64,000 bases of DNA from Halorarum halophilum (GCF_013401515.1 NZ_CP058529.1:2914001-2978000), one strand, 5' to 3'; positions 27,071 through 33,455 are shown, counted from the first letter of the stretch. Notes: generated from the sequence alone by a model not told the origin. Program-made: numbers and translations.

Positions 27071-27880
27071 TCAGTTCCGCTTGCGGCGGGGCATCGTCGA
27101 CTTGCGACCGACGCCCTGCATGTCCGGACGGTTCGACGGCATCGAGGAGTACCGTCCCCGGCGGGAGCGGGACTTCCGGTCCGACTCGTCGTCCTCTTCT
27201 GGTTCCGCTTCGTCTTCGGCTTCCTCGGCTTCCTCGGCTTCTTCGGCTTCGTCATCGCCCGTGACGGCGTCCGCCGCCGCCTCCGTCTCGTCGGCCACGC
27301 TCTCGGCGGCGGTCTCAGAGAGTTGATTCGCCGCGTCCCGAAGCCTGTCGACGAACGACGCGGTTCCCCCGGATCGCTCGTCGTCCTCGGACTCGGCTTC
27401 GTCCCCGGGTTCCTCTGCTTCCTCGGTCTCGTCAGGTTCGGCGGTCGAACCGTCGTCTGTCGATTCCACGGTATCACCCACCCCGCTGTCGGCCGAAACG
27501 CCCTCGAACAGGTCCCGAAGCTGTTCGTGCCGCTCGTCGGACTCCAGGCCCTCCCACTCCTCCGCCAGATCCCGAAGCCCGAGTAATCGGTGGACGGTAT
27601 CGACCTCCTCGTCGTCCGCCTGCCCCACGAGTTCCGGGAGGTCCGTGGGCTTCGGGTCGTCGGGCAGGTCCTCGAATCCGGCGGCCCGAAGCAACGTCTC
27701 GAAGTCGGCCTCCCGTGCCTCTTCCGCGAACTCCGCGAGCGCGTCGCCGACCGCATCCTCGTCCTCGGACGAGAGGCCCTCCCCCTCGTCGAGGAGCGGG
27801 ACGATGCGGTCGGTCGCCTCCGCGAGGCGGTTCGCGAGTTCTGTGGCCCGGTCCTCCGGCTCCGAGGAGGGTTCCGTCAA
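27071..27880 (-). CDS. Acidic protein with basic tail, fourth gene of the low-complexity operon
   Basis: A 269-residue protein of unknown function. Residues 1-125 look like a helical globular domain (AEATDRIVPLLDEGEGLSSEDEDAV, LLRAAGFEDLPDD, HRLLGLRDLAEEWEGL). A disordered acidic middle follows (Asp/Glu-rich, about 130-235). The tail is strongly basic, with RSRRGRYSSMPSNRP and GRKSTMPRRKRN. Such an acid-then-base layout suits electrostatic self-association or nucleic-acid contact. Its ATG overlaps the stop of the gene before it by four bases (ATGA), so both are made together. I do not recognise any family. Confidence 0.72.
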   Translation of the reverse strand: MTEPSSEPEDRATELANRLAEATDRIVPLLDEGEGLSSEDEDAVGDALAEFAEEAREADFETLLRAAGFEDLPDDPKPTDLPELVGQADDEEVDTVHRLLGLRDLAEEWEGLESDERHEQLRDLFEGVSADSGVGDTVESTDDGSTAEPDETEEAEEPGDEAESEDDERSGGTASFVDRLRDAANQLSETAAESVADETEAAADAVTGDDEAEEAEEAEEAEDEAEPEEDDESDRKSRSRRGRYSSMPSNRPDMQGVGRKSTMPRRKRN

Positions 27881-28701
27881 CCGCTCCCACCCTCCCCCCC
27901 GTCGGAGGATTCCGCCTCCTCGGTCTCGTCCTGGGCCTCCTGGGCTTCCTCCTCCGCGAACTGCTCGACGATGGCGTTGGTCATCTCCTCGCGCCCCAGG
28001 TTCGCCTTCACGTCGACAGACTTGGCGACCGACTGGAGGTCGGAGTAGGAGAGCACGTCGAGCAGTTCGCGGTACGTCTCGCGTTTGAGGTCGCCCGTGT
28101 CCCCCTGGAGCGCCTCCACGGCGTCGGAGCCCGCCCCTGTCGCGGTGTCGGCCGCCTCCCCCGCGGCGTCGGCCGCCTCCCCCGCGGCGTCGGCCGCGCC
28201 TCCGGCCGCATCGGTCGCCTGGTCGGCCACCCCTTCTGCCGTGTCGGTCGCCTGGTCGGCCGCGTCCTCGGCCGTCTCAGTCGCCTGGTCGGCGGCCTCT
28301 TCGGCGGTCTCCCCTGCGGTCTCAGCGGCGTCCTCCGCGGTCTCCTGGGCCTCCTCGCCACGCTCGGCGATCCCCTGAAGCGCGTCGCCGACGGCGTCCT
28401 GGAACTGTGGCTGTGAGAAGGTCCGACCGATGGCGACCACTAGCGCCCGAAGAACCCGGCCCGGAAGCGACAGTTCCCGGTCGGGGTCGCTGACGAACGG
28501 CAGCCAGTCCCGAACTCGCCGTGCGATCCGTCGACCGAGTTGCCGACCTGCCATGGCGCCGAGCGACTTACCCAGCGTGCGGCCGAGCGACTCGCCGTCC
28601 AGCTGGTCCTCGATGTCGCCGCCTGCCAGGAGGTCGCCGACGTCGGCCTGTTCGCGTACCTCCTCGACGATCGCCGCCTTCGGATCGGGCTCGTCACTCA
28701 T
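27877..28701 (-). CDS. Glycine-zipper and Ala-rich repeat protein with SAP-like domain, third gene of the operon
   Basis: A 274-residue protein with no recognised family. Residues about 35-62 carry a glycine zipper (SLGRTLGKSLGAMAGRQLGRR), Gly every fourth residue, followed by a basic amphipathic stretch and a hydrophobic helix near 80-92. Residues about 112-190 are Ala/Glu/Asp/Thr repeats (AADAAGE-type) resembling LEA or phasin helices. Residues about 200-240 (YRELLDVLSYSDLQSVAKSV) resemble a SAP/HeH helix-extension-helix fold. The tail is acidic. It is coupled to the gene after it and lies 48 nt after the 132-residue protein gene. Confidence 0.72.
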   Translation of the reverse strand: MSDEPDPKAAIVEEVREQADVGDLLAGGDIEDQLDGESLGRTLGKSLGAMAGRQLGRRIARRVRDWLPFVSDPDRELSLPGRVLRALVVAIGRTFSQPQFQDAVGDALQGIAERGEEAQETAEDAAETAGETAEEAADQATETAEDAADQATDTAEGVADQATDAAGGAADAAGEAADAAGEAADTATGAGSDAVEALQGDTGDLKRETYRELLDVLSYSDLQSVAKSVDVKANLGREEMTNAIVEQFAEEEAQEAQDETEEAESSDGGEGGSG

Positions 28702-28749
28702 CGACCGTCACCCGCCGTCGGCGGTTTCGGCCAGTGGGAAACGACATGC

Positions 28750-29148
28750 TCACTCCTCGTCGTCCTCGTCGGCCTCGTCTTCGTCCCCATCACCTTCCCC
28801 TTCTTCCTCGCCTTCCCCGCTTTCTTCCTCTTCGCCTTCTCCTTCCTCGCCTTCCTCCTCTTCGCCTTCACCTTCCTCCTCGTCGCCCGCCAGCGTCTCC
28901 GTCAGCGAAGCGACGATGAGCCCCCCCAGCCATGCGCCGAGGCTCCTCCCGAGGAAGGAGCCGATGCGGCCGCCGACGTACTCGGCCGTCGACTCCCCCT
29001 CCTGTGGCGATCCCTCGAGGGGCGTCCCTTCGAACACCTCCTCGAAGTCGATCCCCTTGACGGACTGGACGACGTCTAACTGCTCACCGTCGCCGTTCCC
29101 ATCACCGCTTCCACCGTCGTCCCCGTTGCCGTCCTCGTTCTCGCTCAT
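28750..29148 (-). CDS. Small glycine-zipper protein with poly-acidic tail, second gene of the operon
   Basis: A 132-residue protein. After a Gly/Asp/Asn-rich start it has FEEVFEGTPLEG, then a glycine zipper (YVGGRIGSFLGRSLGAWLGG) and a short hydrophobic helix (IVASLTETLAG), probably membrane-inserting. The last 45 residues are almost only Glu, Gly and Asp. The zipper resembles that of the 274-residue neighbour (both follow a D/E-GES motif), so the two may be diverged paralogues. The ATG overlaps the previous stop by four bases (ATGA). Function unknown. Confidence 0.7.
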   Translation of the reverse strand: MSENEDGNGDDGGSGDGNGDGEQLDVVQSVKGIDFEEVFEGTPLEGSPQEGESTAEYVGGRIGSFLGRSLGAWLGGLIVASLTETLAGDEEEGEGEEEEGEEGEGEEEESGEGEEEGEGDGDEDEADEDDEE

Positions 29149-30041
29149 GTGCTGGACTCCCCGTCAGATTCGCTCGACTCCTCGGAGCCGTCGCCGAACA
29201 GCTCGGAGACGAACTCCTTCAGCACCTGGGTCAGGATGGCATTGATATCGATCTTCTCCAGCGCGTCACTGACTGGCCCCGAGACGGACTCCTTCGCGGA
29301 GGAGGCCCAATTGGACACGCCACCTCCGCCCTCACCTTCCTCGTCTTCACCCTCGCCGCCGGAGCCGCCGAGCAGATCTCCCAGGCCGGGCAGTCCGCCG
29401 AGGAGGCTGCCCAGCCCGCCGCCGGACATCGGCTTGAGCAGTCCCGCGACCCCGGAGAGGAGGTTGCCGAGCAGGTTGTTCTCCCCCTTCACCGCGTCCA
29501 CGTCGAGGACCACCTCGTTCAGGTCGACCTCCAGGCCGAGCAGGTTGAGGAACAGCCCCTCGAGGTCGAGGTGGAGGACGGTCGCACGCTCCCCCTCCTC
29601 TTCAGCGCCTTCCTCACCTTCTTCTCCCTCCTCGGCGCCCTGCTCGCCTTCTTCCTCACCTTCAGCACCTTCTTCGCCTTCCTCCCCTTCCTCTTCGGTA
29701 CCTTCCTCACCTTCTTCCTCTTCGGCACCCTGTTCGCCTTCTTCCTCCTCCTCGCCTTCCTCACCTTCTTCCTGGGCTGCCTCGTCCTCTCCCTCTTCCT
29801 CGCCTTCCTCCTCGGTATCCTCCTCACCCTCGTCGCCGCCTTCATCGCCCTCGTCCGCACCTTCGTCTTCCTCGTCGCCCTCGGCCTCCTCGTCCGTTCC
29901 GCCGTCGGTCACGAGGCGGTGATGGCGATTCGACGAGGGTCCTTCGTCCGACAGAACGCGCACTCCGTCTCGTGCCTCGACGCCTGCCGACTCCCGTGAT
30001 TCGGGGTCGTCCTCCGACTCCTGACTGCTGGAAAATCGCAT
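29145..30041 (-). CDS. Large acidic protein with a Leu/Gly core, first gene of the operon
   Basis: A 298-residue protein from the ATG at 30041 (MRFSSSQESEDD). A further 24 codons upstream are open, but a TATA-like TTACAA about 28 nt before this ATG favours it. There is no signal peptide. Residues about 50-155 are Glu/Gly/Asp repeats. The core (about 160-240) contains LDLEGLFLNLLGLEVDLNEV, then VKGENNLLGNLLSGVAGLL, followed by a Gly/Leu stretch (GGGLGSLLGGLPGLGDLLGG). A C-terminal helix (about 265-290) follows. From memory, a similar 'NLLGNLL' motif occurs in some bacterial proteins of unknown function. It heads four coupled genes. Confidence 0.72.
   Translation of the reverse strand: MRFSSSQESEDDPESRESAGVEARDGVRVLSDEGPSSNRHHRLVTDGGTDEEAEGDEEDEGADEGDEGGDEGEEDTEEEGEEEGEDEAAQEEGEEGEEEEEGEQGAEEEEGEEGTEEEGEEGEEGAEGEEEGEQGAEEGEEGEEGAEEEGERATVLHLDLEGLFLNLLGLEVDLNEVVLDVDAVKGENNLLGNLLSGVAGLLKPMSGGGLGSLLGGLPGLGDLLGGSGGEGEDEEGEGGGGVSNWASSAKESVSGPVSDALEKIDINAILTQVLKEFVSELFGDGSEESSESDGESST
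29582..29880 (-). repeat. Long purine-rich (minus) / pyrimidine-rich (plus) tract
   Basis: About 300 bp, mostly C and T on the plus strand, encode the Glu/Gly repeats (GAG, GAA and GGC codons). Similar shorter tracts lie at 28745-28885. Such tracts can form triplex DNA and are prone to slippage. Confidence 0.7.
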
Positions 30042-32342: not shown

Positions 32343-33455
32343 ATGGCGATCATGCAATCCACAGCACTGCGGCTCCTCGCCGCGCTCCTTGTGCTCCTCC
32401 TGGTCGCGAGCGGGCCGGCGGCGGCCGCTGAATCGAGTTTCGGCGGCACCGTCGTCGTCGCCGAGGGCGAGACCGTGAACGGCGACCTCGACGCGGTCGG
32501 CGGCACCATCGTCGTCCGCGGGACGGTCGACGGCGACCTGAACGCGGCCGGCGGGACGGTGCTCGTCGCGCCCACCGGCGTCGTCACCGGCGACCTCTCC
32601 GGCGCGGCCGGCGCGGTGACCATCGAGGGCCGCGTCGACGGCAACGTCGAGGTCGGCACCGGCGCGTTCATGCTGCGCGAGTCGGGCGCTGTCGGCGGCG
32701 ACCTCGAGGTCGGTGCCGGCGAGGTGCTCGTCGACGGCGCCGTCTCGGGCGACGTGACCGCGGGCGCCGACCGGATCCGCATCGGCCCGACCGCGACCGT
32801 CGGCGGGAACGTCGCGTACGACTCCGACGACTTCGCCTACGAGGGCGACGGCGTGGCCGGCACGGTCAGCCGGACGGACCTCGACGGCGCGGCGGCCTGG
32901 AACTTCGACGGTGCGCTGTTCACCCTTCCCGCGTGGCTGGGCGTGCTGTACAGCACGCTCGTCCACCTCGCGCTCGGGGCCGTCCTGCTGCTCGTCGCGC
33001 CCCGCTTCGTGGGCGAGGTGAGCGAGGCCGGCCTGACCGACACCGCCCGGAGCGGCGGCGTGGGGCTGGCGGCGCTCCTGCTCGTCCCGGTCGGCCTCGT
33101 GCTCCTGGCGATCACGCTGATCGGCATCCCCCTCGCCCTGCTCGGCGGCGTCGCCTACGGCCTGCTGCTGTGGGCCGGGCTGGTGCTCGGCGCGTTCACG
33201 CTCGGAACGTGGGCCCTGCGGGCGCTCGACCGTGCGGACGCCGAGAACGCACGCTGGCTGGCGCTCGGCTTCGGTCTCCTCGTCGTGGCGCTCACCCAGT
33301 TCGTTCCCGGCGGCGGCCTGGTCCGCCTGGCGCTGACGGTGATTGGCGCCGGCGCCGTGCTGCTCGTCCTGCGGGCGCGACGCGCGGGTGACGGGGATGT
33401 CGGGTCCGCGGGCGTCGACGGCGACGGCGAGTCGAAGCGCGGCCCGGCGGTCTGA
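32343..33455 (+). CDS. Exported bactofilin-like (polymer-forming) membrane protein
   Basis: A 370-residue protein with an N-terminal signal peptide (cleavage near AAAAESS). Residues about 32-165 are short beta repeats (VNGDLDAVGGTIVVRGTVDGDL, VGGDLEVGAGEVLVDGAVSGDV) of a right-handed beta-helix, as in bactofilins. Four to five membrane segments follow (about 205-345). Bactofilins polymerise into filaments, normally inside the cell; here the signal peptide puts the domain outside, tethered to the membrane. The ATG at 32343 is about 25 nt after a TATA-like element; an ATG nine bases later is also possible. It may help organise the envelope. Confidence 0.83.
   Translation: MAIMQSTALRLLAALLVLLLVASGPAAAAESSFGGTVVVAEGETVNGDLDAVGGTIVVRGTVDGDLNAAGGTVLVAPTGVVTGDLSGAAGAVTIEGRVDGNVEVGTGAFMLRESGAVGGDLEVGAGEVLVDGAVSGDVTAGADRIRIGPTATVGGNVAYDSDDFAYEGDGVAGTVSRTDLDGAAAWNFDGALFTLPAWLGVLYSTLVHLALGAVLLLVAPRFVGEVSEAGLTDTARSGGVGLAALLLVPVGLVLLAITLIGIPLALLGGVAYGLLLWAGLVLGAFTLGTWALRALDRADAENARWLALGFGLLVVALTQFVPGGGLVRLALTVIGAGAVLLVLRARRAGDGDVGSAGVDGDGESKRGPAV

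Follow-up and report, generated by a model that had tools for sequence, protein, structure and literature searches.

A four-gene cassette encoding a second GvpI-type protein accompanies GvpC-less gas-vesicle genes in haloarchaea

Four coupled genes for acidic proteins

The window analyzed here, a stretch of 64,000 nucleotides from Halorarum halophilum (G000:C1:2914001-2978000), contains a cluster of four minus-strand genes transcribed in the order A, B, C, and D (Table 1). The original prediction of four co-directional genes with products of these lengths was confirmed at the coordinates listed there, as was the 48-nt gap, which lies between B and C. Two ATGA overlaps had also been predicted; the one between A and B is indeed ATGA, whereas C and D overlap by TTGA, with the TTG start codon of D overlapping the stop codon of C. 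Genes were called here with a simple program based on codon usage, which favors a GTG codon at position 29912 as the start of A, while the ATG at 30041 had been chosen originally. In several relatives, the N-terminus is a stretch that closes with R-x-L-L-[TP]-DGG, a feature that favors the start at 30041. The parts of A listed in Table 1 draw on an alignment of 27 sequences.

Table 1. Genes of the cassette in the window, their parts, and a small gene recurring at gvp-linked loci.
Feature	Coordinates	Strand	Product	Remarks
Gene A	29145..30041	(-)	298 aa	Start uncertain, alternative GTG 29912
Gene A, parts				Acidic N-terminal region; conserved core of ~50 residues VLHLDLEGLFLNLLGLEVDLNEVVLDVDAVKGENNLLGNLLSGVAGLL; C-terminal amphipathic helix
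Gene B	28750..29148	(-)	132 aa	Acidic; single glycine-zipper helix VGGRIGSFLGRSLGAWLGGLI
Gene C	27877..28701	(-)	274 aa	Parts from predicted model
Gene C, parts				Predicted glycine-zipper helix ~36-66; Ala/Glu-rich helix 98-169; SAP/Rho_N-like three-helix C-terminal domain 194-266
Gene D	27071..27880	(-)	269 aa	TTG start; GvpI paralogue
Gene D, parts				Acidic helical body; basic tail SSMPSNRPDMQGVGRKSTMPRRKRN
Small coiled-coil/zinc-ribbon gene (candidate accessory gene)	L172:4939-5292, L182:5044-5406, L183:13195-13530, L125:5229-5591

All four proteins are as acidic as had been anticipated, with a computed pI of about 4 and a combined content of aspartate and glutamate of 34.6% (A), 37.9% (B), 24.1% (C), and 33.1% (D). 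D ends in 35 residues of strongly basic character, in agreement with the predicted basic tail of the fourth protein, and the GxxxG-type zippers following a GES motif in B and C and the SAP-like end of C were recovered as well. Searches of the four proteins against Pfam and NCBIfam returned low-complexity matches only, all below cut-off, and A had no match in either collection. The proposed likeness of the third protein to phasins or LEA proteins did not survive these searches, since it is of the low-complexity type only (Phasin_2, E 0.99; YtxH, E 0.0017; both far below the cut-offs); with no profile of any other granule family matching, a phasin/LEA-type granule coat was rejected as a candidate. 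Within-genus comparisons gave dN/dS values of about 0.2-0.4 for each of the four genes, and D diverges fast (46% identity to the copy in genome G002). The four genes are thus real, conserved, and under purifying selection, and none of them encodes an enzyme; an assembly or scaffold function had been the right general idea.

Adjoining the cassette, on the plus strand at 32343-33455 of the window, we also observed a reading frame with bactofilin-like beta-helix repeats (GDLxAxGGTVxVxGxVxGD) and transmembrane segments.

The cassette is conserved in gene order among haloarchaea

Of 60 related genomes searched with C, 16 contained relatives, and the A-B-C-D order recurs around these relatives beside unrelated housekeeping genes that vary from genus to genus. 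When genome contigs were scanned with a profile covering the 56 residues of the A core, 71 loci emerged: 69 belong to haloarchaea (many Natrialbaceae, Haladaptatus, Halegenticoccus, Halomarina, Halococcus, and others), and two to the bacterium Salipaludibacillus. At 46 of the 71 loci, A, B, C, and D are present in this order without any gvp gene in the 6-kb flanks. The four genes hence form a coupled system with conserved synteny, as had been surmised, rather than a set of homologues scattered one by one over unrelated contexts, and conservation extends well beyond the acidic repeats: the alignment of the A core contains 19 invariant columns. The lengths of A and C vary among species.

Neither full-length A nor its core alone had a tblastn match among plasmids. 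In Haladaptatus halobius the genes of the cassette are annotated as encoding hypothetical proteins, and no paper that we found mentions the A-D cassette. The two Salipaludibacillus loci (L127:5638-6225 and L144:5575-6165) encode proteins in which a signal-peptide-like N-terminus is joined to an A core (NLLGNLLSAVAGLLDG), a domain without a Pfam family. They have no gvp neighbors; GvpK is present in all three Salipaludibacillus genomes with an A core, to be read against a base rate of 17/35 in the family.

Physical linkage to gas-vesicle gene clusters

Gas vesicles are protein-walled flotation chambers. Among the first 16 neighborhoods inspected are five with a gas-vesicle (gvp) gene cluster that contains or adjoins a relative of A, B, or C; the neighbors at one of these loci, L041, proved by Pfam to be GvpO, A, F, G, H, K, and L together with the GvpA-type proteins J and M. 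Overall, A plus B and/or C were found inside or beside a gvp cluster at no fewer than 10 loci, with two typical layouts: gvpA-gvpO-(small gene)-A-B-C, and, within the gvpF-M operon, gvpH-A-(B/C)-gvpI. The small gene that is conserved between gvpO and A at such loci (Table 1) encodes a protein of about 111-120 amino acids with a coiled coil and a CPxC...CLDC zinc-ribbon-like motif, and is a candidate for a further accessory gene. An N-terminal TDGG motif that by eye seemed common to A and GvpO was rejected on counts (57/69 A vs. 2/42 GvpO proteins).

Linkage is confined to a minority of the genomes possessing both A and gvpK: in 14 of 77 (five genera, four families) no more than 15 kb separates A from gvpK, and in the others A is distant from gvpK or on another contig. 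The window genome is of the latter type: its gvpO, A, F, G, H, I, J, K, L, and M occupy C1:2.742-2.753 Mb, some 190 kb away from the cassette, and it has no GvpN or GvpC match over cut-off. Two other features of this genome were noted: two minus-strand genes (L044:5730-9325; 553 and 625 amino acids, with N-termini that by eye resemble asparagine synthetase) are inserted between gvpA and gvpF, and a lone second gvpA-like gene (L045:7165-7386; C1 ~2.557 Mb) stands some 190 kb away from the main gvp cluster, with no other gvp gene in its vicinity.

A natural loss of the genes is provided by genome G181 when compared with the closely related G256: the gvp regions of the two share about 94% identity, yet A, B, and C are all present in G256 and all missing from G181. 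Where G256 has A, B, and C after gvpM (L181:4782-7756), G181 keeps a 136-amino-acid glycine-zipper protein (L157:7332-7742).

Co-occurrence with gvp genes and mutual exclusion with GvpC

Among 242 genomes of Halobacteria, the A core is present in 78 and GvpK in 96, and 77 genomes have both (Fisher p = 1.3e-43); GvpK is thus found in 77/78 A-positive but in only 19/164 A-negative genomes. Sampling of genomes is uneven, and relatedness was taken into account only through the linkage in several families and by counting genera, at which level GvpK occurs in 30/31 A-positive and 11/42 other genera (p = 3e-10). The sole exception is Natribaculum breve (G162), which has A-B-C but neither GvpK nor GvpF/L. 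Conversely, seven genomes with an extended-GvpI cluster lack A, and A is therefore not strictly required. Collectively, the association of the cassette with gas-vesicle genes is well supported.

The presence of A is also related to the absence of GvpC. The Halo_GVPC repeats (PF05465) were found in 0/40 A-positive and 12/19 A-negative gvpK-positive genomes (p = 4.5e-8), a comparison in which a very divergent GvpC may escape the search and in which one of the 12 positives, G181, is represented by a single marginal match far from the gvp cluster. PF05465 had no match anywhere in the window genome or in the other 39 A-positive genomes; it was used in place of PF01304, the cyanobacterial-type GvpC model, which was uninformative as it matched in no genome. 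Some gvp-carrying genomes possess neither GvpC nor A, and the two are distributed over different species even within a single genus (g51), one having A without GvpC and another GvpC without A. In the gvp clusters of A-positive genomes GvpI is extended, at about 230-350 residues, a form that was not seen in GvpC-positive clusters. In a GvpF tree the A-positive rows cluster together; since the row of G069, with its very long branch, is a bad call, we use this tree as supporting evidence only.

These data agree with reports that the vac regions of Natrialba, Halopiger, Haladaptatus, and others are devoid of gvpC, gvpD, and gvpE (PMC4390858). According to the same review, several haloarchaea with gvp clusters lacking gvpC and gvpDE have no visible vesicles, for a reason that is not known (PMC4390858). 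The presence of gvp genes is not equivalent to the presence of vesicles.

Domains of A, B, and C and homology of D to GvpI

The model of A places four strands and a helix in the core at low confidence (pLDDT 63), and Foldseek returned no meaningful match for it. B and the N-terminal part of C are homologous, with the glycine-zipper helix common to both, and in gvp-linked copies B and C can be a single fused gene with a zipper and a SAP-like end; because of these fusions, B and C look like products of a single ancestral gene. The model of C reaches an overall pLDDT of 77, and its C-terminal three-helix domain one of 87-96. This domain resembles SAP/Rho_N helical domains in predicted fold, with Foldseek matches of the SAP type (DEK, FAN1, Rho, and Tho1) at an rmsd of about 1 Å and probabilities of 0.85-0.97 but E-values above 0.1, while the sequences of C and of its relatives score below the cut-offs of the SAP/Rho_N profiles. 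The same domain was observed in a haloarchaeal protein (L040:7033-7551) that fuses it to an HSP20 domain (Pfam E 1.8e-11) and that is encoded at a site with no gvp gene nearby; GvpH is HSP20-like as well.

For D, a profile built from 49 proteins matched a profile of 26 extended GvpI proteins with a probability of 99.4 (E 4e-21) over 245 columns. As controls, 30 column-shuffled profiles reached at most 0.4, and the D profile was negative against those of C, GvpH, and GvpO. D is therefore homologous to GvpI, and since the true GvpI of the window genome is encoded elsewhere (L044:11436-12284), with D not positioned between gvpH and gvpJ, it is a paralogue, an additional copy that shares its operon with A, B, and C and lies apart from the gvp cluster. 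The homology covers the length of D, including the basic tail with S-x-P-S...DM...ST-x-P, although the tail of D stops earlier and is without the RYSSAPN..RLYG part found in GvpI. In Halobacterium, GvpI is a basic protein that binds GvpH, GvpF, and GvpL, and it promotes the formation of GvpJ, GvpK, and GvpM oligomers; its loss changes vesicle length and results in very long vesicles (PMC7688916).

Discussion

We propose, with a probability of about 0.62, that A to D constitute a satellite operon supplying accessory factors to the GvpC-less, extended-GvpI type of haloarchaeal gas-vesicle machinery. D, as a second GvpI-type protein, would dock on the GvpL/GvpF/GvpH accessory complex in the manner of Halobacterium GvpI. 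B and C may associate through their glycine-zipper helices, either pairing with one another or attaching to the hydrophobic ribs formed by GvpA, GvpJ, and GvpM, and A could contribute a beta-rich hydrophobic core along with its amphipathic helix. Acting together, putatively as a physical complex, the four proteins would control how the vesicle nucleates or grows or how strong its wall is, and would assume part of the role in shape and strength that GvpC holds elsewhere. In its exact role, the cassette is putatively a set of assembly or shell-shaping factors, perhaps one that offsets the missing GvpC.

The mutual exclusion of A and GvpC would also be expected if A and/or C coated the outer vesicle wall and stiffened it as GvpC does in Halobacterium, that is, if they were structural substitutes and not assembly factors. 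The regular Ala/Glu helix of 70 residues modeled in C could then run along the ribs, and the different lengths of A and C among species would be reminiscent of coat proteins with repeats. We consider this rather unlikely, however: similarity to GvpC repeats is absent, with no match of the GvpC model in the window genome, D is an accessory-type and not a coat protein, some gvp genomes manage without both GvpC and A, and the exclusion might merely mark two lineages of gvp clusters. It is less probable still that the cassette positions or segregates vesicles, with the SAP/Rho_N-like domain of C binding nucleic acid or a nucleoid protein and thereby tethering growing vesicles. The confidently modeled fold of this domain and its recurrence in fusions with B-like zippers in gvp-linked copies speak for such a module, but the E-values of the fold matches (> 0.1) fall short of statistical significance, folds of the SAP/LEM type bind proteins too, and C is highly acidic.

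A scaffold, granule coat, or membrane condensate independent of gas vesicles, as envisaged in the original prediction, would account for a cassette that is mostly unlinked to gvp genes, for the one genome that has it without gvp, and for the acidic low-complexity regions; the co-occurrence would then reflect lineage inertia. Such a free-standing function is very improbable given that D is a GvpI homologue, that A, B, and C reside within gvp clusters in four families, that the presence of the cassette tracks gvp genes also when genera are counted, and that A and GvpC part company within genus g51. Least credible of all is a decaying remnant, a paralogous cluster derived from gvp genes and now out of use. 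Several carrier species are reported to be vesicle-negative (PMC4390858) and D diverges rapidly, yet the low dN/dS ratios of all four genes, their intact frames, and a gene order kept across many genera are contrary to decay.

Beyond the satellite operon proposed above, one may tentatively imagine two haloarchaeal routes to finish a gas vesicle, the classical one with GvpC and another in which unlinked A, B, and C together with a GvpI paralogue replace it and represent the missing partner of gvp clusters that have so far been regarded as complete but silent; we regard this wider idea as possible and not probable. Related species in several of the genera with vesicle-less gvp clusters (PMC4390858) do carry the second, unlinked A-D operon. 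The cassette offers a testable function for three undescribed protein families, plus a second GvpI, and our data suggest that the satellite genes would have to accompany gvp clusters of this kind on transfer to a test host. Gas vesicles serve as ultrasound reporters, an application in which wall strength and shape matter.

When viewed against known systems, GvpC and the cassette occupy complementary sets of gvp-positive genomes, and GvpC and C are alike in being non-enzymatic, acidic, and helix-rich; they differ in that there is no sequence similarity, that the gene order is another one, and that several proteins stand in the place of one. Bacterial accessory proteins, namely GvpP/Q/R/S/T/U of Bacillus megaterium and GvpV-Z (names and roles as in PMC9501494), resemble the cassette as lineage-specific extras on a conserved gvp core. 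Their likeness to C is limited to a weak, YtxH-like low-complexity similarity, they show no significant family match to the cassette, and the haloarchaeal genes are distinguished from them by their organization in a separate operon.
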